Assembly (NCBI GenBank): GCA_902509905.1
Contig: CABWZI010000005.1
Location: forward strand, 1-64,000
Reading direction: 5' to 3'
Source of the DNA: an uncultured Gammaproteobacteria bacterium
GTDB lineage: Bacteria; Pseudomonadota; Gammaproteobacteria; PS1; Pseudothioglobaceae
DNA length: 64,000 nucleotides
How positions within the stretch are numbered: the stretch's first letter is position 1; each line of letters opens with the position of its first letter. The position numbers and the translations under genes are program-made. Positions 6,923-19,198 of this stretch are shown piece by piece. Below the pieces are notes generated by a model. That model did no database searches and was not told where the DNA came from. It worked only from the letters and a program-made list of their open reading frames with translations.

Positions 6923-7270
6923 CTATAAAAGACGTGAACCATTATCGATAGGTAAATCATTAGTAGCTAGCACCACTGAATTATCGAGACGATAAAATCC
7001 CAGAACCAAGCACTCACTCATAATTGGGCCAACCTGTTTGGGCGCAAAATTTACGACGCCCATAACTTGCTTATCTTGCAGTTGTTCCTTGTTATATAGG
7101 TCTGTAATTTGTGAACTTGATTTTTTTATTCCAATTTCAGAGCCAAAGTCAACATGGAGAATGTAAGCAGGCTTTCTGGCCTCTGGAAAATCCTCAACCT
7201 TAATTATAGTTCCAATTCTTATATCAACTTTTTCAAAATCTTGCCATGTAATGGTCACATCATCTCCCAT
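6923..7270 (-). CDS. CsaA/YgjH-type tRNA-binding domain protein
   Basis: A stand-alone OB-fold domain of about 110 residues related to the C-terminal domain of methionyl-tRNA synthetase and to CsaA, a protein with tRNA-binding and proposed chaperone activity. Family marks are DFEKVDIRIGTI near residues 12-23, HVDFGSEIGIKKSSSQIT and VMGVVNFAPKQVGPIMSE, all in the expected order. The start ATG overlaps the stop of the upstream MetX-like gene by one base, so it is co-translated with the amine-type operon. Its role there is unknown; such small genes are often operon passengers. Confidence 0.85.
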   Translation of the reverse strand: MGDDVTITWQDFEKVDIRIGTIIKVEDFPEARKPAYILHVDFGSEIGIKKSSSQITDLYNKEQLQDKQVMGVVNFAPKQVGPIMSECLVLGFYRLDNSVVLATNDLPIDNGSRLL

Positions 7271-8283
7271 TATTGCTCTCCAAGTAGCTGATTTAATCCA
7301 TTTTCTAATGCTAAAGTAAAGCCTTTATCATTGCCTGGATTGGCAGCGCAATGACCAAATGGTGAATCAAAGGGTCTGAATTCAACATTTGCTATAAAGC
7401 TAGCTTCAATGGCATTATCTTCAGGAGGAAAATATAAATCTTGAGAACACGGCATCAGAATGGTTTTAGCTTTTATTGATTTAAGTGCCATCTCAAAATT
7501 GCCATTATAAATCGGACCAATACTAATGTCACTAGTCTGCCAAGTCCTTAGCTTAGAAATAAGGTTGTTGGCATCCCAATTTGTAGCGTGGTCTTCTTCC
7601 CAATCAACCAATAAATCCTCAAATGACTCAAAACCTAGTGTTTTATAGAGTGAGTCTCGATAGAACGTTTGGGAAAAAGCCCATCCCGCATAAACTCTTG
7701 CAAATGCTTTTAGTCCATCAACAGGAGGTGAGCTATAGTCTCCATTATTCCAGTGTTGGTCTGCGCAAAGTGCCGCCCTTACACCTTCAAGAAATACAAA
7801 GTTGTGTGGTGAAGTTTTTGCAGAGGCGCAGAATGGCAAAATAGAATCAACAAAATCAGGGTACTGGGCAGCCCACTGATAGGCTTGGCAGCCGGCCATT
7901 GACCATCCTGTCACCAGAGCAATTCTCTTGACTCCTAATGCCTCAGTCAGAAGTCGATACTGGCATGCAATATTATCCCAGAGTGAAACATGAGGGAACC
8001 TTGGGCCATCCTGAGGAGACTCAGTATTGCTTGGAGAGGAAGAAATTCCATTACCAAACATATTAATTGAAACAATGAAGTGCCTATCAGGATCTATGGC
8101 TCTTCCAGGACCGAAGAATCCTTCATTTCTTTGATGTGATCCAGTATAAAAGGTAGGCAAGACGACAACATTACTTTTATTGCCATCCAATTTGCCGTAG
8201 GTTTTATAGGCCAAGAACGCAGAACTTAATACCTCTCCAGAGAGAAGAGTTACATCGCCTAGTTCAAATTTATCATAGCCCAT
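7270..8283 (-). CDS. MetX-like alpha/beta-fold acyltransferase or hydrolase
   Basis: The 337-residue protein has the homoserine O-acetyltransferase (MetX) fold: an N-terminal block LAYKTYGKLDGNKSNVVVLP, nucleophile elbow GWSMAG with the catalytic Ser, catalytic Asp in CSQDLYFPP and His in FGHCAANPG. MetX enzymes normally carry GGSMGGMQ at the elbow; here it is GWSMAGCQ, so homoserine as substrate is doubtful and a hydrolase is possible. It follows the GmaS-like gene by 15 bases and overlaps the next gene by one, placing it in the amine operon. No methionine-biosynthesis neighbour is present. Confidence 0.75.
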   Translation of the reverse strand: MGYDKFELGDVTLLSGEVLSSAFLAYKTYGKLDGNKSNVVVLPTFYTGSHQRNEGFFGPGRAIDPDRHFIVSINMFGNGISSSPSNTESPQDGPRFPHVSLWDNIACQYRLLTEALGVKRIALVTGWSMAGCQAYQWAAQYPDFVDSILPFCASAKTSPHNFVFLEGVRAALCADQHWNNGDYSSPPVDGLKAFARVYAGWAFSQTFYRDSLYKTLGFESFEDLLVDWEEDHATNWDANNLISKLRTWQTSDISIGPIYNGNFEMALKSIKAKTILMPCSQDLYFPPEDNAIEASFIANVEFRPFDSPFGHCAANPGNDKGFTLALENGLNQLLGEQ

Positions 8284-8298
8284 TTCAGCAAATTTTTA

Positions 8299-9612
8299 TC
8301 AACAGTCTAGAGTATTATCTCTCTCCCATTGACTGAGATGTGATGAATAGTCATTCCATTGACTTTGCTTAAGCTTGATATAAGCATCAATTAATTCATC
8401 TCCAAGCCTTTCTCTCAAGACATCACTCCCCTCAAGTAGTCTTAAGGCATCTAGTAGATTTTTTGGAAGTTGCTTGTAACCCTCAATATCTTTACCAAGT
8501 TCATACATATTAATATCTAATGGATTACCAGGATCTCGGTTTGCAGCTATTCCATCTAGTCCGCATGCGAGAATAGCAGCCTGCATAAGGTAAGCATTTG
8601 CAGCGCCATCCATGAGTCTCAATTCAAATCTACCAGAGTCTGGGACTCGAATCATATGAGTGCGATTATTTCCTCCATAAGTAATTGAACTTGGAGACCA
8701 TGTTGCACCAGAGAGAGTTCTTGGAGCATTTATTCGTTTATAACTGTTCACGGTTGGATTAAAGATTGCTGTCAATCTATCTGCACTATGCATAATGCCG
8801 CCTAAGAACTGATATGCCAAAGAAGATAGTCCTAGTCCCCTGCTATCATCATCTCCATTAAAGAGATTTGTAGAGCCATCCAGGCTCCAGATAGAGAGGT
8901 GAGAGTGACAACCATTGCCCGTCAAGTGGCTGAATGGTTTTGGCATAAATGTAGCACGCATTCCATGAAGTTCTGCTATCGATTTCACCATAAATTTAAA
9001 AAATACTTGACGATCAGCAGTGGTCAACGCATCATCAAAATCCCAGTTCATCTCAAATTGACCATTAGCATCCTCGTGATCATTTTGATAGGGACCCCAA
9101 CCGAGCTCGATCATGCTGTCGCATATTTGTTTAATGACTGGATATTGACGCATCAACGCTTGCTGATCATAGCAAGGCTTACTCTGTTGATCTTTGTCAT
9201 CTGCGATGTCTGTTCCATCATCATTAATTAGATGGTATTCGCATTCAACACCGGTCTTCATTCTAAAGCCTTGCTTTTCAGCTTCAGCAAGCTGCCTCTT
9301 TAATGCAACTCTTGGTGATGCCTCAACTGGCTTTCCATCCATCCATAAGTCAGAGGCTAGCCAAGCAACTTCTGGCTTCCATGGCAATTGAATCAAACTG
9401 TCTGGATCAGGAATAGCAAACATATCTGGGTGTGCAGGAGTCATATCAAGCCATGCTGCAAAACCAGCAAAACCAGCGCCTTCTTCTTGCATACCATCAA
9501 TCGCTCTAGCAGGCACTAATTTGGAGCGCAAGCTTCCAAATAAATCCACAAAACTTATCAGAAAATATTCAATCCCTCTTTCTTTTGCTACTTTACTAAG
9601 TTTAGTTGCCAT
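8299..9612 (-). CDS. Glutamine synthetase family, GmaS/GlnT-like (type III annotation group)
   Basis: This ATP-dependent ligase couples glutamate gamma-carboxylate to ammonia or an amine. The 437-residue protein keeps the GS metal and substrate residues: Glu123 and Glu125 in GVECEYH, Glu187 in NGQFEMN, His236 in GNGCHSH, Arg322 and Glu330. The N-terminal FLISFVDLFG and FAGFAAWLDMTPAHPD stretches are typical of the group annotated type III glutamate-ammonia ligase, which includes gamma-glutamylmethylamide synthetase GmaS. Position directly downstream of the GlxD/MgsC gene (37 bases) favours GmaS-like methylamine ligation. Sequence alone cannot separate GmaS from GlnT. Confidence 0.82.
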   Translation of the reverse strand: MATKLSKVAKERGIEYFLISFVDLFGSLRSKLVPARAIDGMQEEGAGFAGFAAWLDMTPAHPDMFAIPDPDSLIQLPWKPEVAWLASDLWMDGKPVEASPRVALKRQLAEAEKQGFRMKTGVECEYHLINDDGTDIADDKDQQSKPCYDQQALMRQYPVIKQICDSMIELGWGPYQNDHEDANGQFEMNWDFDDALTTADRQVFFKFMVKSIAELHGMRATFMPKPFSHLTGNGCHSHLSIWSLDGSTNLFNGDDDSRGLGLSSLAYQFLGGIMHSADRLTAIFNPTVNSYKRINAPRTLSGATWSPSSITYGGNNRTHMIRVPDSGRFELRLMDGAANAYLMQAAILACGLDGIAANRDPGNPLDINMYELGKDIEGYKQLPKNLLDALRLLEGSDVLRERLGDELIDAYIKLKQSQWNDYSSHLSQWERDNTLDC

Positions 9613-9649: not shown

Positions 9650-10972
9650 CTATACTCCATTCTTTCCAGGAATCCATCCGGTCCCAGCCAATGGAACACC
9701 TGCCATTGCAGCCGCCTCCATTGTTAATGCTACCATATCTTCTGGCTCCAAATTATGGACGTGGCTTTTGCCACACGCTCTCGCCAAAGTTTGAAGTTCC
9801 AGAGTCAACACATTAAGATAGTTAGCCAGACGACGGCCTCCCAATTTAGGATCTAAGCGCTTTGCTAGCTCGGGATCCTGCGTTGTAATTCCAGCTGGAT
9901 CATTGCCTTGTTGGTAATCATCCCAAAAGCCTGCTGCAGATCCGATCGCTTTATAGTCTTCATCAAACTCAGGACTCTGGTCGCCCAAGGCTATTAGTGC
10001 TGCTGTTCCTATTGCAACTGCATCAGCTCCAAGCGCAAGTGCTTTTGCAACATCAGCACCACTCCTGATGCCACCAGAAACAATCAGCTGGACTTTGCGA
10101 TGCATATCCATTTCCTGCAATGCTTCTACTGCCATTCTAACTGCTGGCAATGTTGGAATCCCTACATGCTCAATAAAGACATCCTGAGTTGCAGCAGTAC
10201 CGCCCTGCATTCCGTCAACAACAACAACATCTGCCCCTGCTTTAACGGCAAGAGTAACATCATAAAATACGCGGGTTGCCCCAACTTTGACATAAATCGG
10301 TTTTTCCCAATTAGTAATTTCTCTGAGCTCTTGAATTTTGATTTCAAGATCATCAGGGCCAGTCCAGTCTGGATGGCGACAGGCTGATCTCTGATCAATA
10401 CCCTCAGGCAAATTTCTCATTTGTGCTACTCGAGGAGAAATTTTTTGACCCAAAAGCATGCCACCGCCCCCAGGCTTTGCACCCTGACCAAGAACTATTT
10501 CAATTGCATCTGCTCTTCTTAAGTCGTCAGGATTCATTCCATATCTTGAGGGCAGATATTGATAAACAAGAGTCTTTGAATGACCTCTTTCTTCAGGAGT
10601 CATTCCTCCATCGCCTGTTGTAGTACTTGTTCCAGCAATGGTTGCACCTCGCCCCAAGGACTCTTTAGCCTGAGCAGAGAGGGAACCAAAACTCATTCCA
10701 GCAATCGTTATAGGGGTCTTCAAATGGATAGGTTTCTTTGCAAATCGATTTCCAAGGACAACTTCAGTCGTGCATTTTTCTCTATAACCTTCTAAGGGGT
10801 AACGTGAAGTTGAAGCACCTAAAAAAACCAGGTCATCGAAGGTAGGTATCTCTCTCTTAGCGCCAAAACCTCGAATATCATAAATACCCGTTTTTGCAGC
10901 GCGTTGAATTTCAGCAATGACGTGCCTAGGAAAAGTTGCTGACTCAATTAATGTTGGATTGTCTTTACTCAT
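9650..10972 (-). CDS. GlxD/MgsC, glutamate synthase large-subunit FMN domain protein
   Basis: This stand-alone FMN domain resembles the central domain of glutamate synthase and the C subunit of N-methylglutamate synthase. Starting at ATG 10972, about nine bases after AAGGAG, it has 440 residues; an upstream in-frame start at 11056 would overlap the previous gene and is unlikely. FMN-barrel blocks include GMSFGSLSAQAKE (92-104), KPGGGGMLLGQKI (167-179), DGMQGGTAAT (253-262) and SGGIRSGADVAKALALGADAV (299-319, split here). The loop where glutamate synthase binds 3Fe-4S has no cysteines here; only Cys67, Cys198 and Cys400 exist. That suits a non-redox transfer. Confidence 0.87.
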   Translation of the reverse strand: MSKDNPTLIESATFPRHVIAEIQRAAKTGIYDIRGFGAKREIPTFDDLVFLGASTSRYPLEGYREKCTTEVVLGNRFAKKPIHLKTPITIAGMSFGSLSAQAKESLGRGATIAGTSTTTGDGGMTPEERGHSKTLVYQYLPSRYGMNPDDLRRADAIEIVLGQGAKPGGGGMLLGQKISPRVAQMRNLPEGIDQRSACRHPDWTGPDDLEIKIQELREITNWEKPIYVKVGATRVFYDVTLAVKAGADVVVVDGMQGGTAATQDVFIEHVGIPTLPAVRMAVEALQEMDMHRKVQLIVSGGIRSGADVAKALALGADAVAIGTAALIALGDQSPEFDEDYKAIGSAAGFWDDYQQGNDPAGITTQDPELAKRLDPKLGGRRLANYLNVLTLELQTLARACGKSHVHNLEPEDMVALTMEAAAMAGVPLAGTGWIPGKNGV

Positions 10973-10985
10973 AAATCTTTTCTCC

Positions 10986-11660
10986 TTAATAGTCGTCGAC
11001 TTGGTCGATATCGAAGTTATATAATTTACGTGCTGAACCATATCGACGGAACTCATCTACACTGTAATTCATTTGCGCCATTTCTAACAGAGTTGCTAAC
11101 TCTTCCTTGTGTTCTTTTTTCATTTCTTTTTCTTCGCAATCTGTTCCTAAGCTTTTGACCTTTCCTCGGACATAAATTTTTGTTTCGTAAATAGAGTCTC
11201 CCATTGCATCACCAGCGTCTCCGCATACAACAAGAGTCCCTGACTGAGCCATAAAGGCACTCATGTGGCCGATATTACCGCCCACTACTATATTGACACC
11301 CTTCATTGATATGCCGCATCGCGAACTGGCATCCCCCTCAATAACTAGCAAGCCGCCATGGGCAGTAGCGCCCGCATACTGAGAGGCATTACCAGTCACA
11401 CGGACTTGACCAGACATCATATTCTCTGCAAGTCCAGGCCCAGCATTTCCATTAATTTTTATAGATGCCTCTTGATTCATTCCTGCACAGTAATAACCGA
11501 CATGGCCATTGATCTCCACATTGATATCTTTTGTGAGTCCTACAGATAGTGCATGCTTACCAACAGTGTTATTAACTGTAAAATTATCGCCCGAAGAGCC
11601 AACTTGTAACTTCTCATTTAACTCTCTAATACTGCTCTGATTCAAATCTATTGTAGCCAT
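10986..11660 (-). CDS. GlxC/MgsB, glutamate synthase beta-helix domain protein
   Basis: A 224-residue stand-alone version of the glutamate synthase C-terminal GXGXG beta-helix domain, the B subunit of N-methylglutamate synthase-type complexes. Repeated Gly-centred turns run through VGKHALSVG, NGHVGYYCAGM, NGNAGPGLAENMMSG, TGNASQYAGATAHGG and GNIGHMSAFMAQSGTLVVCGDAGDAMGDS. It starts two bases after the GlxB/MgsA stop and ends 13 bases before the GlxD/MgsC ATG, so the three subunits are tightly coupled. It has no catalytic residues of its own and is expected to shape the ammonia or amine channel. Confidence 0.88.
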   Translation of the reverse strand: MATIDLNQSSIRELNEKLQVGSSGDNFTVNNTVGKHALSVGLTKDINVEINGHVGYYCAGMNQEASIKINGNAGPGLAENMMSGQVRVTGNASQYAGATAHGGLLVIEGDASSRCGISMKGVNIVVGGNIGHMSAFMAQSGTLVVCGDAGDAMGDSIYETKIYVRGKVKSLGTDCEEKEMKKEHKEELATLLEMAQMNYSVDEFRRYGSARKLYNFDIDQVDDY

Positions 11661-11662
11661 AT

Positions 11663-12556
11663 TTAACTCCTTTTCCAGCTATAAATCTGAGTCGGTTCAG
11701 GCTCCCAAATGCGAGCATTTTCAGCACCTGGAAGTGTTGCAATGGCGCGATACTCTGATGACATAGCTGCCCAGTCATCGGTCTCAGCCATAATTGCAGG
11801 CTTACATCCAATCGGATCTCGCATCACAGCAAATCCATCCTTAGTGCCGATGGCAAAAGTATAAAAACCATCCAAATCCTCTATTGCATGATTCAATGCC
11901 TGATCCAAGTCATCACCCTCACTCAAACGCCAACTCAAGTAACCTGCGGCTACCTCACTATCATTATCAGTTTTGAACTGGACGCCTGCACGTTTAAGGG
12001 TTTCACGAAGACGGTTATGATTTGAGAGAGAGCCATTATGCACTAGACACAAATCCTGACCAGTAGAAAATGGGTGAGAGTGCTCTGTAGTAATGGCGCT
12101 TTCAGTTGCCATACGTGTATGCCCTAGGGCGTGAGTACCTGTCATATTCTTGATATCAAATTGCTCTATAAAATCAGAAGGATTTCCCTTTCCCTTAAAG
12201 ATTTCAATATTACTACCAGCGCTGGTTACACTTAACGCATTCCAGTTGTCATGTAGCCATGCTTCTACTTCATTAAGTGACGCCCCAAGTGAAAGAACTG
12301 CATGATTCTGGTTGACATAGAACTTAATCACTGAAAAATTAGAACTGACAGCATTTTCAAAGTCTGCCCAATCAAAATCAGCATCTTGGGCAAGCACAGT
12401 AACTTTACAGCCCTTCTCATTGGGGTCTCTATAGACAGCCATACCAGCACTATCTGGGCCACGCTCTGTCATCTCACTCAGCATAGGAGCTACGAGAGCT
12501 CCCAATTGCGATTCAAGCTCTGGATTTTTAATAAAAAGTCCAACAATTCCACACAT
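11663..12556 (-). CDS. GlxB/MgsA, class II glutamine amidotransferase-like protein
   Basis: The 297-residue protein begins MCGIVGLF, so Cys2 becomes the N-terminal nucleophile of the Ntn-hydrolase fold. Other family blocks are TERGPDSAGMAVY near residue 31, GHTRMATES, HSHPFSTGQDLCLVHNGSLSNH and a DSE-type TDNDSEVAAGYL motif. In glutamate synthase this domain frees ammonia from glutamine; in N-methylglutamate synthase (MgsA) it is proposed to handle gamma-glutamylmethylamide. It is the first of the consecutive three-subunit set with GlxC and GlxD. A 102-base gap separates it from the upstream GS homologue. Confidence 0.88.
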   Translation of the reverse strand: MCGIVGLFIKNPELESQLGALVAPMLSEMTERGPDSAGMAVYRDPNEKGCKVTVLAQDADFDWADFENAVSSNFSVIKFYVNQNHAVLSLGASLNEVEAWLHDNWNALSVTSAGSNIEIFKGKGNPSDFIEQFDIKNMTGTHALGHTRMATESAITTEHSHPFSTGQDLCLVHNGSLSNHNRLRETLKRAGVQFKTDNDSEVAAGYLSWRLSEGDDLDQALNHAIEDLDGFYTFAIGTKDGFAVMRDPIGCKPAIMAETDDWAAMSSEYRAIATLPGAENARIWEPEPTQIYSWKRS

Positions 12557-12658: not shown

Positions 12659-14077
12659 CTAGTAAAGCCTCAAAAATTCTTGAACTTCCCAGTCAGTAAC
12701 TGCCTGGTGGTATCTATCCCACTCATCTTTTTTATATGAGAAAAATTGGAGTAGCATTGAATCACCCAAGACTTCCTTTGCAAAATCATCTTTGTTCAGA
12801 GCCTCAATCGCCTCTAAAAGGTTTCGAGGGAGTGATTTAATATTTGATGCCTCCATTTCTTCAGGGCTCAAAGTATAAAGATTTAGATTTAAGGGTTGAC
12901 CAGGGTCAATTTTATTTTTAATTCCATCTAACGCTGCCGCAGTTGTTAGCGCAAGAGACAGGTATGGATTCATGCACATATCTGCTGCACGATTTTCAAT
13001 ACAGAAACGGTTCTGAGGAAGACGAATCATGCAAGAGCGATTGTTGTCTCCATAGGCCATTGTGGTCGGCGCCCATGTATAAACTCCTCCCTCAAATCCT
13101 CCCACGATTGGAACTAGTCCATTGTATGAGTTGACCGTTGAGCAGGCAACTGCTGTAATTGAAGTGCCGTGCTTAATCAAGCCTCCAACAGCATGGTAGG
13201 CTAAGTCAGAAAACTTACCATCTTTTCCTTCAAAGATATTTTTATTGTCTTTATTGCTCGTCATACTAAAGTTAATATGGGCGCCGGATCTCCAGTCACC
13301 AATGGTTGGCTTTGGCATAAAGGTAATAAACATCCCATATTTTTTAGCCACTTCTTTGAGCAAAACTCTCAAGAAAACTAATCGATCCGCCATCTGCAGA
13401 ATGTTGGTATAGGTAAAGTCTAATTCAAATTGTGAATACGCACCCTCACAGACAACATCCTTCATTTCCCAACCAAGGTCATTAACGATATCTATTAGTT
13501 CTTTGAGAAACTCCATAGAATCTATTGAGTACTCAACGTCATATCCAAAGGCTTGCCTTCTCGGACGAAGGCCTTCTCCAGGTAATGGATCGTCATCGAT
13601 AGCCTTAACGGGTTGACCATCCTCATAGCGCATTGCAATAAACTCTGGCTCAATCCCACAAAAAGCCTTATAGCCTGCATCATCTGCATTTTGAACAGCT
13701 CTTTTAAGGGTCTGACGAGGGCATAAATTATATGGTTCACCCTCCCACCACAAATCAGAAAAAACCCAAACACAAGTTTTATCCCAAGGACAAATAACTA
13801 AACTGTCTAGATCAGGGACAGGAATTTGATCTGAGTCATTTGGCCCTAGCTCTGGAACAAAGGAGACTGAGTGGACAGCAAATTGTGGTCCTTTTCCAGC
13901 ACATAGTGCCTCGAATTCGGCAAAAGGGATTGGCTTTGTTTTTGGAAGACCAAGCATATCAATCCAACAAGAAAGTATATATTTTATGCCTGCCTTTTCG
14001 AGCCTTGCTTTTTCTTCTACAACACGTTTTTTAGAGGGAAGTGCATCTTCCATCTTGGTATGGTAAATTCTATTCAT
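12659..14077 (-). CDS. Second glutamine synthetase homologue, divergent amine ligase candidate
   Basis: A 472-residue GS-fold protein with catalytic residues apparently intact: Glu143 and Glu145 in GIEPEF, Glu218 in YSQFELD, His267 in SGAHINF, Arg352 and Glu361. It differs clearly from the other GS gene of this operon: the second His of the H-x-H pair is Asn269, the N-terminus is longer and the phosphate-binding end reads QNRFCIENRAAD. A strong AGAAGGAG lies before the chosen ATG. Genes like this are annotated glutamine synthetase or gamma-glutamyl-amine ligase (compare PuuA, IpuC, aniline-pathway ligases). The amine substrate is unknown; a wholly biosynthetic GlnA role is unlikely from context. 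Confidence 0.82.
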   Translation of the reverse strand: MNRIYHTKMEDALPSKKRVVEEKARLEKAGIKYILSCWIDMLGLPKTKPIPFAEFEALCAGKGPQFAVHSVSFVPELGPNDSDQIPVPDLDSLVICPWDKTCVWVFSDLWWEGEPYNLCPRQTLKRAVQNADDAGYKAFCGIEPEFIAMRYEDGQPVKAIDDDPLPGEGLRPRRQAFGYDVEYSIDSMEFLKELIDIVNDLGWEMKDVVCEGAYSQFELDFTYTNILQMADRLVFLRVLLKEVAKKYGMFITFMPKPTIGDWRSGAHINFSMTSNKDNKNIFEGKDGKFSDLAYHAVGGLIKHGTSITAVACSTVNSYNGLVPIVGGFEGGVYTWAPTTMAYGDNNRSCMIRLPQNRFCIENRAADMCMNPYLSLALTTAAALDGIKNKIDPGQPLNLNLYTLSPEEMEASNIKSLPRNLLEAIEALNKDDFAKEVLGDSMLLQFFSYKKDEWDRYHQAVTDWEVQEFLRLY

Positions 14078-14106: not shown

Positions 14107-14655
14107 TTAAATTTTCTCTTGAGACTTCAATAAGAACTGATTTTTAAATGTTGAGAGTCCTTTCATAACCTCAACATCCTTAATATCTTCGTTATTAAAG
14201 CAATGCTCTTCGAGAAAATTACTCAATGTATCGTCACTCTCTGATGCAATCTCAACAAGCAAATCATATCGACCGGTAACCCACATAATAAATACAATCT
14301 CATTGCAGCCTTCTAACCTCTTAGCAACCAAACTTGGACTTGAACTTGAGGCAACTTTTATTCCGAGCATTGAATCAGTTGAGTAGTTTATTGCAGAGCG
14401 ATCAACTAGCGCTTTGATTTGCAAAACTCCAGCATCTTTCATACGGTTAACTCTATTTCTGACTGTGCCTTCTGAGATGTCTAGAGTATTTGCAATTTCC
14501 TTAAAAGGTAGCCTGCCATCTAACTCCAACAAGTCAATAATTTGCTGATTTAATTTATCCTTTAGCGTATCTCTGGTTGGTATACGAGCGTTTGTATCAG
14601 GATTCATCTCAGTGTTTTGACTGAGATTTATTAAACGACTGCTTGAGCTACTCAT
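14107..14655 (-). CDS. Lrp/AsnC family transcriptional regulator
   Basis: A feast/famine regulator of 182 residues: an N-terminal winged helix-turn-helix (LNQQIIDLLELDGRLPFKEIA, split: LNQQIIDLLELDGR, then ISEGTVRNRVNRMKDAGV at about 58-75) followed by the alpha/beta ligand-binding RAM domain with VTGRYDLLVEI. It lies inside the amine-type operon between the cupin and GS homologue 1 genes, so it is a likely local regulator sensing an amino acid or amine. Two starts are possible: ATG 14655 (6 bases after the cupin stop) or ATG 14607. An 8-bp hairpin at 14606-14627 overlaps the second one. Confidence 0.87.
   Translation of the reverse strand: MSSSSSRLINLSQNTEMNPDTNARIPTRDTLKDKLNQQIIDLLELDGRLPFKEIANTLDISEGTVRNRVNRMKDAGVLQIKALVDRSAINYSTDSMLGIKVASSSSPSLVAKRLEGCNEIVFIMWVTGRYDLLVEIASESDDTLSNFLEEHCFNNEDIKDVEVMKGLSTFKNQFLLKSQEKI
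14606..14627 (-). other. Inverted repeat at the second possible start of the Lrp gene
   Basis: ATCTCAGT and ACTGAGAT form an 8-bp perfect stem with a six-base loop. One arm includes two bases of the alternative ATG at 14607 and its upstream purines. It could be an operator half-site pair or an mRNA hairpin affecting initiation, or chance. Confidence 0.4.
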
Positions 14656-14661
14656 CGCTTT

Positions 14662-15069
14662 CTAGTTTTGTGGCATATCTTCTGGATCAATTCCAGGAAC
14701 AAATGTAATGCCTGCCTGTTGCTTCCAATCATGCGGGTAAGCTGCATAGAAAATAATACATTTCTCATCACACTCATAGGCAATTGAATTGTCTTTAGGG
14801 ATATACAAAACATCTCCCGGATTGCACTCATAGGCAACGCCATCACAGGTTAGTCTGAACGTCCCTTCCATACAATAAATAATCTCGTCACAGGTCAACT
14901 CCCATGGAACTGAAACTTCATTCAAAAAATTAAGTCCGCCACACATCGTATCGCTGACTGCACTAGTAACGAAAGGCTTGATATAACTTTTACCCGGCTC
15001 AAGTGTATGGAGGCGATGCTCAATTTCGCTAAATTTATAGAGCTTTGGTGTTTTATCTTTCATCATCAT
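14662..15069 (-). CDS. Cupin-fold protein, EutQ-like
   Basis: A 135-residue single-domain cupin. The first cupin block is CDEIIYCMEGTFRLTCDGVAY and the second GDVLYIPKDNSIAYECDEKC (each shown only in part), giving an EutQ or DUF861-like pattern. The canonical His ligands of metal cupins are replaced by acidic or other residues, as in EutQ, so a conventional iron dioxygenase is unlikely. It starts three bases after the glyoxalase stop and is followed six bases later by the Lrp gene. Function unknown; a small-molecule binding or isomerase role in the amine pathway is inference from position. Confidence 0.7.
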   Translation of the reverse strand: MMMKDKTPKLYKFSEIEHRLHTLEPGKSYIKPFVTSAVSDTMCGGLNFLNEVSVPWELTCDEIIYCMEGTFRLTCDGVAYECNPGDVLYIPKDNSIAYECDEKCIIFYAAYPHDWKQQAGITFVPGIDPEDMPQN

Positions 15070-15072
15070 TCC

Positions 15073-15498
15073 TTATTCAGTTAATTCAAGTTTTTCATTC
15101 AGTTCAACGACATAGCCATCGGGATCTTCAATAAAGGCTAGGATTCTTGTTCCCGCATTCATTGGCTTAGCTGGGCTAAGAATCTTTGCACCGCTCGCCT
15201 CAAGGTCTTCGACAGCTTTGTAAACATCGGGTGTTTCTATACAAATATGGCCCCAGCCATTCCCTTTGTCATAGTGCACTTCCTGATCCCAATTGTGGGT
15301 TAGCTCTAGGGCTGGAAATTCCCTTTCAGGGCCGTAACCTACAAAAGCATTTGTATATCGCCCCCCTGGATAATCAGTTTTTCTTAAAACCTGCATACCC
15401 AATATGTCACAATAAAATGCGATTGATTTATCTAGATCCAAGACCCTCATCATTGTATGCGCTAATCTGTAGTCACTATTGAAACTTTCATTTGCCAT
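15073..15498 (-). CDS. gloA: Glyoxalase I, lactoylglutathione lyase
   Basis: GloA isomerises the hemithioacetal of methylglyoxal and glutathione to S-lactoylglutathione. The 141-residue protein has the four metal ligands in the correct order and spacing: His14 (LAHTMMRV), Glu65 (ALELTHNW), His84 (GWGHICI) and Glu132 (YVVELNE). The spacing matches E. coli GloA. It follows the Rieske gene by 22 bases. Presence in this operon suggests that a methylglyoxal-like 2-oxoaldehyde, or another glutathione-linked aldehyde, is formed in the pathway; the paralogue may also act on a different hemithioacetal. Confidence 0.88.
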   Translation of the reverse strand: MANESFNSDYRLAHTMMRVLDLDKSIAFYCDILGMQVLRKTDYPGGRYTNAFVGYGPEREFPALELTHNWDQEVHYDKGNGWGHICIETPDVYKAVEDLEASGAKILSPAKPMNAGTRILAFIEDPDGYVVELNEKLELTE

Positions 15499-15520: not shown

Positions 15521-16621
15521 TTATTTTGTTACTGAATCAGCAATCATTTGCTGAAAAGCTCTGACACTGTCTTCCCAAAAAGGGGATAACAATCCTCCAT
15601 CCTTTGAAACTGGGGACAGTCTTCCAAGCTGCATCCTTTGACAGATTGCATGGTCTTCCTTGTGAACATCCCACCATAACTTCTTAATCTCTTCAATACT
15701 TTGATCTGAAACAGGATTGCCATCAGTTGTGTAAATTACCCTTTTCTGAAGGGTGTGGCCTGAATCGACTGGAACATTAAGGTAGACCCCAATCTGATCT
15801 GGGAAATATCTACCAATGATAAAATTAGGAAATAATGTCAAATATCTAGAGCTGACCGAAAGACTACCTTCAACCTTGTCCTCATCATCTAGGTCAATTG
15901 CACTTCCTACGCAAACGCCATCTACAATAGTGTAGTGGTCTTCGAGTGGCTGGTTTGTTGTCGTTCTATGGACAAATTGAACATGGTATGGCTCAATAAA
16001 GTTTTCCATTAGGAACTTCCAATTCGTGTCTATTTTTCCAAAATCAAGAGTCGCAATGGGCTCTACTATTTGGAAATCAATATCTCTAAAATTATTAATT
16101 AACGGTTTGGCATACTCTTCAAAATCTTGCGCCTCGCCACTCAAATTAATAAAAATCCAATCATTCCAGATTGCTGTTCTTACAGCCTGAAGTCCATGCT
16201 TAGACAAGTTAAAGCCTTCAGGTTGATGCTCTCTACCTCCAAAAAATGGAGTGGCACATAGATCACCATCCAAATTATAGGTCCATGAATGGTAGGGACA
16301 TGAAAGCATGGCCCCAACATTACACGACTCATCAATCAGTTTTAGGCATCGATGAGAGCAGGCATTGTGGAAGGCATTTATTTTCCCATCCATATTTTTA
16401 AGCAGAATAATCGGCTGTCCTGCAACGGTAATTGGGATGGCATCTCCAGGATCTTTAAATTCATGAACAAAACCAGCAAAAACCCAATTATTTGTAAAGA
16501 CAGTTTTACTCTCTGCATCAAAAAACTCTTCACTCGTATACGCCCAACTAGGAAGACCATGTTTTAGGTCGCTCTTCTTATTAAATGCAGACAAATTATT
16601 TTTGATAATTGATGTGTCCAT
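15521..16621 (-). CDS. Rieske oxygenase alpha subunit, quaternary/methylated-amine type candidate
   Basis: A 366-residue oxygenase using a Rieske 2Fe-2S cluster and a mononuclear iron to hydroxylate or demethylate. The Rieske ligands are Cys88-x-His90 and Cys108-x2-His111; the iron site is His213-x4-His218 in FIEPYHVQFVH. Three residues before His213, the bridging position is Glu210 rather than the usual Asp. A bridging Glu is reported for carnitine oxygenase CntA and occurs in related GbcA and choline monooxygenase-like enzymes. It is the first gene of the minus-strand operon. No reductase or ferredoxin gene is adjacent. Substrate unproven. Confidence 0.87.
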   Translation of the reverse strand: MDTSIIKNNLSAFNKKSDLKHGLPSWAYTSEEFFDAESKTVFTNNWVFAGFVHEFKDPGDAIPITVAGQPIILLKNMDGKINAFHNACSHRCLKLIDESCNVGAMLSCPYHSWTYNLDGDLCATPFFGGREHQPEGFNLSKHGLQAVRTAIWNDWIFINLSGEAQDFEEYAKPLINNFRDIDFQIVEPIATLDFGKIDTNWKFLMENFIEPYHVQFVHRTTTNQPLEDHYTIVDGVCVGSAIDLDDEDKVEGSLSVSSRYLTLFPNFIIGRYFPDQIGVYLNVPVDSGHTLQKRVIYTTDGNPVSDQSIEEIKKLWWDVHKEDHAICQRMQLGRLSPVSKDGGLLSPFWEDSVRAFQQMIADSVTK

Positions 16622-16799: not shown

Positions 16800-18158
16800 T
16801 TGGATAATGAAAAAAACAATATAGAGATTGAATTTAATGGCTTTTCTGGTTATGAATTAAAGCACTCTAAAGAGGTCGATGATGAAATTACACGCATTGG
16901 TCCAGGTACAAAAGCTGGAGAATATTTAAGAAGATATTGGCATCCAATTTATATCTCATCAGAACTTACAGACCTTCCTGTAGCAATCAAAATCTTGGGT
17001 GAGGAATTAGTTTTATTTCGTGACAAAAGTAAGCGACTTGGCCTAGTTCACAAACAGTGTCCACATCGCCAAGCCTCTCTTGAGTTTGGAATTTGTCAAA
17101 CTCATGGAATCAGTTGCTGCTATCACGGCTGGCACTTTGATGTTGATGGAACAATTTTAGATGTTCCAGGCCAGTCTGAACACACTCAAGAAATCATTAA
17201 AGAGAAGGTTCAGCTCGGCGCGTATCCGATGCATGAATTCAAGGGACTTATTTTTGCCTACTTGGGTCCAAAAGAAAAGAGGCCTGAGTTTCCAATGTAC
17301 GATAGTCTAAATTTTGATGACATGGAAATGGTTCCATACAAAGCCCCGTTTGATTGTAATTGGCTTCAAGTTCTCGATGCCATTGTCGACCCTATTCATA
17401 CTGCTTTTCTTCACTCTAATATGAGTCGACAACAGTTCTCTGAGGGATTTGGTGAAGTTGGACAGATTGAATTTTTTGAGAGAGATAGCTGGATTCTTGG
17501 ATGCAATACTAGAAGGGTTGGTGACAATGTTTGGTTCAGAATTAATGAAGTTATCCTCCCTAACTTTACTCAAGCAGGAGCGGCATTTGCTGCTGATGGA
17601 ACCAAACAACTGCTTTATGGTCGAAGTTCCTTTACAAGGTGGGTAGTCCCAATTGATGATGAGACAACGATTTGCTATGCCTGGGCAAATTTTGGTGAAC
17701 GTGGTGATCCTCATAAATACAATACGCCAGAAGGGCCTGAGCTCATTGAGCAGGGAGAGATATTTGATAGACCTTATGAGGAGCGTCAAAGATTCCCTGC
17801 AGATAGAGAAGCGTGCGAGGGGATGGGTCCAATTAACATCCATAAAAACGAAAACCTGGTTGCCAGTGACCAGGGAGTTGCAATGATGCGTCAAAGAATA
17901 AGAGAACAAATCAGAAGCCTTGCTGATGGCAAAGAACCCTACAAAGTGACTGATCTAAAAGAATCGCCAATACCAACTTATGGAGGTGATTCTGTTCTTA
18001 ACATTCCAAAAAATGATGATAATGAGGACAGTTTCTTCAGTAAACTTGCCAAGGAGTTCATTAAAATTCAGTTTGAGGTTGATAGCAAAACTGAGGAAGA
18101 GAGAATTAAAATTGTCTCTGATAAACTAATTGAAATTCAATCAAGAGAGAGCTCGTAG
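16800..18158 (+). CDS. Rieske oxygenase alpha subunit, phthalate dioxygenase/O- or N-demethylase class
   Basis: A 452-residue Rieske oxygenase of the phthalate 4,5-dioxygenase and vanillate demethylase class, distinct from the divergent neighbour. Rieske ligands are Cys87-x-His89 and Cys106-x2-His109. The iron site is His200-x4-His205 in VDPIHTAFLHS with the canonical bridging Asp197. The start is TTG at 16800, nine bases after AAAGG; there is no in-frame ATG before the conserved region. It is followed 11 bases later by a D-2-hydroxyacid dehydrogenase gene. Members of this class use a separate FMN/2Fe-2S reductase, which is absent here. Substrate unknown. Confidence 0.87.
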   Translation: MDNEKNNIEIEFNGFSGYELKHSKEVDDEITRIGPGTKAGEYLRRYWHPIYISSELTDLPVAIKILGEELVLFRDKSKRLGLVHKQCPHRQASLEFGICQTHGISCCYHGWHFDVDGTILDVPGQSEHTQEIIKEKVQLGAYPMHEFKGLIFAYLGPKEKRPEFPMYDSLNFDDMEMVPYKAPFDCNWLQVLDAIVDPIHTAFLHSNMSRQQFSEGFGEVGQIEFFERDSWILGCNTRRVGDNVWFRINEVILPNFTQAGAAFAADGTKQLLYGRSSFTRWVVPIDDETTICYAWANFGERGDPHKYNTPEGPELIEQGEIFDRPYEERQRFPADREACEGMGPINIHKNENLVASDQGVAMMRQRIREQIRSLADGKEPYKVTDLKESPIPTYGGDSVLNIPKNDDNEDSFFSKLAKEFIKIQFEVDSKTEEERIKIVSDKLIEIQSRESS

Positions 18159-18169
18159 GTCAATAAGCT

Positions 18170-19198
18170 ATGCAGGGTAATAAAAAAATTAGAGTCCACT
18201 TTAAGAGTAATCATGCTGATCCTGATTCATTCCCTCCAACCATAGAGGGTGAAAGTGTATTTGCAATAACCCAAGAAAGATATCAAGCTGCAATTGAGAG
18301 CTATCCAGATCTAAAAGATAAGATTGATCCCGTTTTTGATTGGGATCTTGACAACTTTTATGAATCTATGAAAACTGCAGAGGTTTTAGTATGCTGGGAT
18401 TTTCCGACTGAAAATCTATCTGAAATTGCCCCTAATTTAAAGTGGATACATATCATTGGTGCTGGTGTTGAGCATTTATGCCCGATGGATTGGGTTCCTG
18501 AAAATGTCTCTGTTGTAAACAATAGAGGAGTTCATTCGGCGAAGGCTGGAGAGTTTGGGCTGATGAGCGTCTTGATGCTGCACACTCATATTCCTGAAAT
18601 AGTCAGAAACCAACAGAGCAATCACTGGGAGTCTTTATACTCCTCTCCAATCATGGGAAAAACTCTGCTTGTTATTGGGGTTGGAAACATTGGTTATGCG
18701 GCAGCTCAAAAGTGCAAGCTACTTGGAATGAATGTGATTGGTGTGAGTCGTCACGGAAAGAATCTTGATGATGTTGACCGAATGGTCTCTCAAGATGAGC
18801 TCGATGAAGTACTTCCCCTCGCTGACTATATATTTATGTCAACACCAAACACACAGGAGACTTATAACCTTCTTGACAAAAGACGTCAATCATTAATGAA
18901 GCCTGGCGTAGGAATCATTAATGTTGGTAGAGCGGCAACAATGGACTATGATGCGCTTGTTGACAACTTGAACTCTGGCCACATGAAGGCGGCAATCATT
19001 GACGTTTTTGATCCTGAGCCATTACCATCAGATTCTAAGCTGTGGACTACGCCTAACCTTATGGTTATGCCTCACATCTCAGCTGATGACGGTGACACCT
19101 ATATCCCATTGACGCTCGATTTGGTGATGATGAATATGCGCAGATACATTGCGAATGAGGGCCTAAACAATCTAGTGAACCCTGAGCTAGGTTACTAG
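18170..19198 (+). CDS. D-isomer-specific 2-hydroxyacid dehydrogenase
   Basis: A 342-residue NAD(P)-dependent oxidoreductase that interconverts 2-oxoacids and D-2-hydroxyacids. The Rossmann loop GVGNIGYAAAQ occurs near residues 167-177, the catalytic Arg in NVGRAATMD, the acidic residue in DVFDPEPLP and the catalytic His in MPHISADDGD. It is closest in pattern to the glyoxylate/hydroxypyruvate reductase-type group, but the first 60 residues are divergent. It pairs with the Rieske gene 11 bases upstream and converges on a glycerate kinase gene with a 12-base overlap, so hydroxypyruvate or glyoxylate reduction is a reasonable inference, not a demonstrated one. Confidence 0.85.
   Translation: MQGNKKIRVHFKSNHADPDSFPPTIEGESVFAITQERYQAAIESYPDLKDKIDPVFDWDLDNFYESMKTAEVLVCWDFPTENLSEIAPNLKWIHIIGAGVEHLCPMDWVPENVSVVNNRGVHSAKAGEFGLMSVLMLHTHIPEIVRNQQSNHWESLYSSPIMGKTLLVIGVGNIGYAAAQKCKLLGMNVIGVSRHGKNLDDVDRMVSQDELDEVLPLADYIFMSTPNTQETYNLLDKRRQSLMKPGVGIINVGRAATMDYDALVDNLNSGHMKAAIIDVFDPEPLPSDSKLWTTPNLMVMPHISADDGDTYIPLTLDLVMMNMRRYIANEGLNNLVNPELGY

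Follow-up and report, generated by a model that had tools for sequence, protein, structure and literature searches.

The Rieske oxygenase Rk1, encoded in a 64,000-nucleotide stretch of DNA that we refer to as the window, most probably serves as the oxygenase in a marine operon of a kind already known, for which only a tentative ring-opening chemistry can be proposed. We propose that Rk1 acts as terminal oxygenase in a catabolic cassette that recurs among marine bacteria and that its substrate is most likely homarine (N-methylpicolinate), a reading to which we assign a probability of roughly one half. The gene neighbourhood of Rk1, which the sequence-only reading of this DNA had left unused, is stronger evidence than the active-site glutamate on which that reading was built. 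If the substrate is homarine, a recognisable five-gene signature would link an abundant phytoplankton compound with a bacterium of the SUP05 group and with many SAR11 genomes.

Rk1 and the genes that accompany it

The features around Rk1 in the window are listed below with their positions, strands and the matches on which their annotation is based.

7270..8283 (-): MetX-like alpha/beta hydrolase, 337 aa, core cassette member (NF005757, 432 bits vs cut-off 332)
8299..9612 (-): GSIII_1, type III glutamate-ammonia ligase / probable gamma-glutamylmethylamide synthetase (TIGR03105, 673 bits vs cut-off 469.6)
9650..11056 (-): mgsC-like FMN glutamate-synthase-domain subunit
10986..11660 (-): mgsB-like GXGXG subunit
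11663..12556 (-): mgsA-like class II amidotransferase subunit of N-methylglutamate synthase / GlxB
12659..14077 (-): GS2, glutamine-synthetase-like ligase, 472 aa (PF00120; best PDB match 9qur)
14107..14655 (-): Lrp/AsnC-family regulator (PF13404, PF01037)
14662..15069 (-): EutQ-type single-domain cupin, 135 aa (PF06249, 62 bits; 4axo match)
15073..15498 (-): Glo, glyoxalase I (GloA family), 141 aa (TIGR00068, 139 bits vs cut-off 120; 1f9z match)
15521..16621 (-): Rk1, Rieske oxygenase alpha subunit, 366 aa (PF00355, PF00848)
16800..18158 (+): Rk2, LigXa/phthalate-type Rieske oxygenase, accessory, divergent (PF00355, PF19301)
18170..19198 (+): D-2-hydroxyacid dehydrogenase, accessory, after Rk2 (PF02826)

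The true start of the mgsC-like gene probably lies downstream of the start of the listed open reading frame (ORF); its orthologues have 440 aa.

Judged by its sequence, Rk1 possesses a complete Rieske centre with the motif C88-x-H90...C108-x-x-H111 and a 2-His-1-Asp iron site: the catalytic stretch from N200 to H218 (NWKFLMENFIEPYHVQFVH) contains Glu210, His213 and His218, and Asp323 aligns in the column of the third iron ligand. The sequence-only reading had rightly placed Glu210 three residues before His213, and since this bridging glutamate is kept in all 78 Rk1-family ORFs, its presence is not due to chance. The ORFs come from 80 loci, the best 80 of 297 in a scan of genome contigs for Rk1 relatives; two loci (L077 and L122) were dropped by an overlap filter, with Rk1 being present in both. 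In an alignment of 27 sequences, Glu210, Pro211, Tyr212 and His213 were invariant. The aspartate that had been named for the divergent paralogue Rk2 was likewise found, with Asp197 and His200 located in NWLQVLDAIVDPIH.

A search of 95 genomes gave Rk1 orthologues with 71-89% identity in 23 besides that of the window, namely in 22 of the 28 genus-mates and in one genome from another genus of the same family. By its relatives, the window genome is placed with Candidatus Thioglobus / the SUP05 group, the nearest named contig being 89% identical in Rk1. Together with Glo, the cupin, GS2 and the hydrolase, Rk1 recurs in Thioglobus, Pelagibacteraceae (SAR11), SAR324, Ruegeria, Roseibium and Hyphomicrobiales. 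Among the 42 loci that extend 6 kb or more to either side of Rk1, the cupin was found in 42, Glo in 41, GS2 in 40 and the hydrolase in 38, while GSIII (19/42), Lrp (10/42) and mgsABC (9/42) were less constant partners. Rk2 and the D-2-hydroxyacid dehydrogenase (window 16800-19198), which are also less constant, form a second, divergently transcribed pair that accompanies the cassette in 26 of the 42 loci. No publication on the Rk1 cassette was among the matches listed in a full-text literature search.

Within the Ruegeria group, Rk1 is followed by Glo, the cupin and GS2 in all of the 18 Rk1-bearing genomes (54 searched). Although these loci are short, 12 of them include an Lrp gene, which in 11 cases lies upstream and on the opposite strand, as in Leisingera. 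The order in Ruegeria L122 and L127 is Rk1-Glo-cupin-GS2-hydrolase-Lrp. The hydrolase adjoins GS2 at these two loci as well as in L036, L078 and L128, the order is rearranged in SAR324 L087, and at L129 neither GS2 nor the hydrolase was seen. mgsABC and GSIII adjoin the cassette in Ruegeria L122 and Roseibium L128, the latter also carrying a sox cluster of the N-methylglutamate dehydrogenase (Mgd) clade. In the genome from the other genus (G042), the core cassette is present with mgsABC and GSIII missing from the interval between GS2 and the hydrolase; the contig stops shortly after Rk1 and does not cover the place of Rk2. In Leisingera, GS2 and the hydrolase are separated by an NMT1-type ABC transporter, which we counted in favour of homarine.

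The surroundings of the cassette vary at several SAR11 loci (L085, L102, L106, L107, L115 and L117), where members of the BKACE, 3-hydroxyacyl-CoA-type dehydrogenase, GBBH-like and OpuAC families accompany it in different combinations. The cassette contigs of Marinimicrobia L090 and Deltaproteobacteria L099 are short, and in the tree described below L090 is placed between rows from SAR11 and Alphaproteobacteria; mis-binning is therefore possible and both phyla were left uncounted.

Relatives of Rk1 and the bridging glutamate

In a maximum-likelihood tree with 39 rows, for which the tool issued a long-branch warning, the 17 Rk1-family rows grouped with L040 (support 96/94), and a sister clade of five enzymes was formed by Phaeobacter L148, Ruegeria L153, Pseudomonas L151 and Thioglobus L038/L039 (100/99). 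Rk1, the sister clade, YeaW, Stc2 and a GbcA-like protein split from BenA, HcaE and a beta-subunit-bearing Massilia enzyme with support of 100/98, these three being the only aromatic-type rows sampled. The kinship with betaine-type enzymes suspected in the sequence-only reading is consistent with this topology, which places Rk1 with YeaW, Stc2 and transporter-linked Rieske enzymes and apart from the few aromatic-type rows. The closest outgroup to the Rk1 clade, L040:8989-10182, is a Rieske oxygenase that is 35% identical to Rk1 and has the same ENFIEPYH motif.

The GbcA-like row, taken from G106, is split over two reading frames. Matches above the NCBIfam cut-off for GbcA references were found in 0/56 and 0/229 genomes, the control being silent too in the 229-genome search, and the tree is therefore without any certain GbcA. 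Rk1 itself was ruled out as GbcA, scoring 131 bits vs the NF058607 cut-off of 670.

A profile search of the PDB returned CntA first, and a search with the single sequence returned salicylate 5-hydroxylase first. With an AlphaFold2 model of Rk1 (mean pLDDT 80.4; residues 214-232 and 249-258 under 50), the 18 best Foldseek rows were all CntA, 3n0q or Stc2, while VIA-align gave a tie, with Z 33.9 for CntA and Z 33.5 for naphthalene dioxygenase. This tie and the salicylate 5-hydroxylase match are what speaks for Rk1 being an ordinary aromatic-ring dioxygenase that acts on a neutral or acidic aromatic compound. We consider this highly improbable, given the separation in the tree, albeit from three rows only and under a long-branch warning, and the glutamate of Rk1 vs the aspartate of eight inspected aromatic-type sequences.

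The contrast between glutamate and aspartate drawn in the sequence-only reading holds in these eight, which are salicylate 5-hydroxylase, 7yls (IadD; same sequence as 8h2t, titled IadD/E), 9o71, two terephthalate dioxygenases, BenA, HcaE and the Massilia enzyme. The glutamate attributed to CntA was confirmed, as E205 in its motif DNYMECYH shares an ungapped column with Glu210 in the PDB profile alignment, and YeaW, Stc2 and the sister-clade enzymes all have glutamate, as had been supposed for betaine-type relatives. The further claim, that glutamate points to a methylated ammonium substrate for Rk1, held in part: the tree, CntA as the best PDB profile match, the aromatic residue aligned with CntA Y203 and the aspartate of Rk2 agree with it, but glutamate by itself does not report the substrate. 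Glutamate alone is not proof because it occurs in 40 of 45 aligned relatives, most with unknown substrate and one of the 40 being a partly aligned fragment, and because a Thioglobus protein (L047:7442-8542) has aspartate although it is placed in the YeaW clade, on a long branch. Two of the glutamate-bearing rows are long, divergent proteins (L141 and L143), and 3n0q, named a putative aromatic-ring dioxygenase, has glutamate in an Stc2-like motif. A test of aromatics against quaternary amines may not separate the cases either, since the likely substrate homarine is an aromatic N-methylpyridinium; if homarine is the substrate, no single residue can sort Rieske enzymes into aromatic and quaternary-amine types when a substrate is both.

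Phe208 of Rk1 occupies the position of the CntA cation-pi residue Y203, with Phe in 69 and Tyr in 9 of the 78 Rk1-family ORFs. A passage of the CntA study (PMC7948474) ties the aromatic residue at this position to cation-pi binding in group Va. With the bridging glutamate, this aromatic residue and the grouping with CntA and Stc2 types, Rk1 appears to carry the marks of the quaternary-amine group V. It shares with CntA and YeaW (group Va) the glutamate, the aromatic residue two positions before it and the Rieske and 2-His-1-Asp sites, but identity is only about 22% in the structural alignment. No CntB-type reductase was found among the annotated window neighbours of Rk1, whose recurring partners are instead a glyoxalase, a cupin, a GS-like ligase and a hydrolase. 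The Stc2- and GbcA-type demethylases (group Vb) share the glutamate and the same side of the tree, whereas the position of Rk1 Phe208 is taken by Asn in both Stc2 and the GbcA-like protein.

The sister clade likewise has the glutamate and the aromatic residue at -2, but its members are 28-32% identical to Rk1 and differ in their neighbours, which are BCCT transporters, aldehyde dehydrogenase and PDR/VanB reductases on the L148, L153 and L151 plasmids or a TMAO demethylase/Mgd cluster (L038). Such neighbours bear on a serious rival to homarine, namely that Rk1 is CntA- or choline-monooxygenase-like and hydroxylates or demethylates an aliphatic betaine of the carnitine, gamma-butyrobetaine, choline or proline-betaine type. 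In line with this, Pseudomonas L151 and Ruegeria L153 adjoin BCCT transporters, L148 and L151 adjoin aldehyde dehydrogenase, L148 and L153 adjoin the reductases, CntA comes first in both the PDB profile search and the Foldseek comparison, and the SAR11 cassette often stands among the BKACE, 3-hydroxyacyl-CoA-type dehydrogenase, GBBH-like and OpuAC genes described above. However, no such transporter, aldehyde dehydrogenase or reductase family is among the majority partners at the best 80 of 297 loci, and the SAR11 flanks vary by lineage while the five genes stay constant. Furthermore, the glyoxalase I, the ligase and the MetX-like hydrolase would be superfluous for a simple demethylation. Taken together, we regard an aliphatic betaine as a possible but rather unlikely substrate.

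Homarine as the candidate substrate

Homarine is a common algal compound and, as an N-methylpyridinium betaine, both aromatic and a methylated quaternary amine. In 2026, Ferrer-Gonzalez reportedly named a homarine operon, homABCDER, that occurs in Rhodobacterales and SAR11 and has N-methylglutamate among its products. The five enzymes and the Lrp regulator of Ruegeria L122 and L127 would fit this name well. The apparent likeness to homABCDER extends from the succession of five enzymes and a regulator at these loci to the occurrence in Rhodobacterales and SAR11 and the position of some cassettes beside N-methylglutamate-pathway genes. The window cassette differs in that Lrp lies inside the run and mgsABC and GSIII lie between GS2 and the hydrolase. 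Homarine is taken up fast by R. pomeroyi according to a section of PMC12817926, and a role of Mgd in homarine catabolism has been reported according to a section of PMC13390433.

In favour of homarine we also counted the placement of Rk1 with quaternary-amine Rieske enzymes by the tree, the PDB profile and Foldseek, as well as the intact metal site of Glo. H14, E65, H84 and E132, presumably the four glyoxalase I metal ligands, are conserved in 75-76 of 76 Glo rows. Counted against homarine were the variable position of Lrp, the presence of mgsABC near only 9 of the 42 cassettes, the carnitine-type surroundings with OpuAC in SAR11, salicylate 5-hydroxylase as the best single-sequence PDB match, and the lack of a role for GS2 and the cupin in the scheme outlined below. 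The assembly to which the window belongs (G000, 89.6% complete) also counted against it, as an Mgd-type cluster was not found there, only one of the sarcosine-oxidase type.

The following scheme would connect the cassette to homarine. Rk1 would receive electrons from an NADH reductase, perhaps a GbcB-like one encoded on another contig, while Phe208 may hold the quaternary nitrogen. O2 activated at the Rk1 iron would then oxidise the homarine ring at C5-C6, and the resulting cis-diol could open and tautomerise to 2-(methylimino)-5,6-dioxohexanoate, a 2-oxoaldehyde that glyoxalase I would convert to a glutathione thioester. The alpha/beta hydrolase, joined by the 2-hydroxyacid dehydrogenase where present, might carry the product towards N-methylglutamate, from which N-methylglutamate dehydrogenase would yield glutamate. 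By our own arithmetic the atom balance works, with homarine being C7H7NO2 and both the diol and the 2-oxoaldehyde tautomer C7H9NO4.

The central part of this scheme, in which a CntA-like Rk1 dearomatises an N-methylpyridinium by C5-C6 dihydroxylation and the ring opens without an extradiol dioxygenase, the 2-oxoaldehyde being captured by a dedicated glutathione-dependent glyoxalase I, is put forward tentatively, as a route that we think may well be wrong. Ring opening via glyoxalase would be a chemically new route that is directly testable, and if true, it would mean that SAR11 and SUP05-group bacteria possess a novel kind of N-heteroaromatic catabolism. We rated both homarine as substrate and the glyoxalase-dependent opening slightly lower in view of the inconstant place of Lrp, the frequency of the bridging glutamate among relatives and a second candidate reductase on contig 7.

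GS2, for which homarine catabolism as sketched here has no use, could have its place in a different sequence of events. In isopropylamine and aniline-type pathways, glutamylation comes first and is followed by oxidation and hydrolytic release; by analogy, GS2 would gamma-glutamylate an amine, Rk1 would oxidise the glutamylated compound and the alpha/beta hydrolase would release the product. The presence of GS2 in 40 of the 42 loci, the glutamate-methylamine ligase (9qur) as its nearest solved relative and the hydrolase adjoining it at the five loci named above are compatible with this. However, Asp177, which is said to be strict and catalytic in GmaS in part of PMC7948447, is replaced by Val in GS2 and in 74 of 76 GS2 homologues, two being unreadable. 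GS2 thus lacks the amine-deprotonating residue and was ruled out as GmaS. Rk1, moreover, keeps the quaternary-amine hallmarks, which would be needless for a glutamyl amide, and we judge this order of reactions to be improbable.

Asp177 is kept in GSIII_1 and in 24 of 25 of its homologues (one unreadable), which bears on the idea that Rk1 frees methylamine, directly or after ring opening, and that the GmaS-like GSIII_1 and mgsABC make N-methylglutamate from it. The window genes mgsABC and GSIII_1 resemble the Aminobacter mgs-glnT-mgd cluster, with the same mgs gene order, and they adjoin the cassette in the same direction in Thioglobus, Ruegeria L122 and Roseibium L128. Against methylamine release stand the proximity of mgsABC in only 9 of the 42 loci and the cassette of G042, in which mgs is absent between GS2 and the hydrolase. 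In addition, a TMAO demethylase is encoded in the Thioglobus relative G006 and would account for mgs independently. We therefore regard methylamine release as quite improbable.

Reductase and N-methylglutamate dehydrogenase candidates in the genome

Four PF00175 places were found in the assembly of the window. One of them is a GbcB-like reductase on contig 1 (L048:8020-9126; 344 bits vs cut-off 500) directly upstream of soxBDAG, the whole spanning L048:8020-14320. On visual inspection, a further one on contig 7 begins with a ferredoxin-like N terminus. The soxBDAG cluster groups with sarcosine oxidases and was thereby ruled out as N-methylglutamate dehydrogenase, whereas that of Thioglobus L038/L039 groups with Mgd. 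A second sox-type cluster with about 40% identity is present in 20 of the 29 genomes of the genus, and two of these clusters were placed with Mgd. In the Ruegeria group, co-occurrence of the cassette and Mgd is uninformative, because all of the 54 genomes have an Mgd-like match.

The Thioglobus relative G006 encodes, at L038:1436-18389, the TMAO demethylase mentioned above (1102.8 bits vs cut-off 1100), choline/betaine-type ABC transporter genes and FolD, and the same cluster also holds a Rieske oxygenase of the Rk1 sister clade and the Mgd-clade sox cluster. On contig 6 of the window's assembly, a second Rieske oxygenase with a bridging glutamate was observed (L041:10035-11213, NWKNLVENFTESYH), with a related Rieske protein in L045. 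Directly beside this second oxygenase lies a PF16867 DMSP-lyase-family protein (L041:9438-10028, 50.6 bits).
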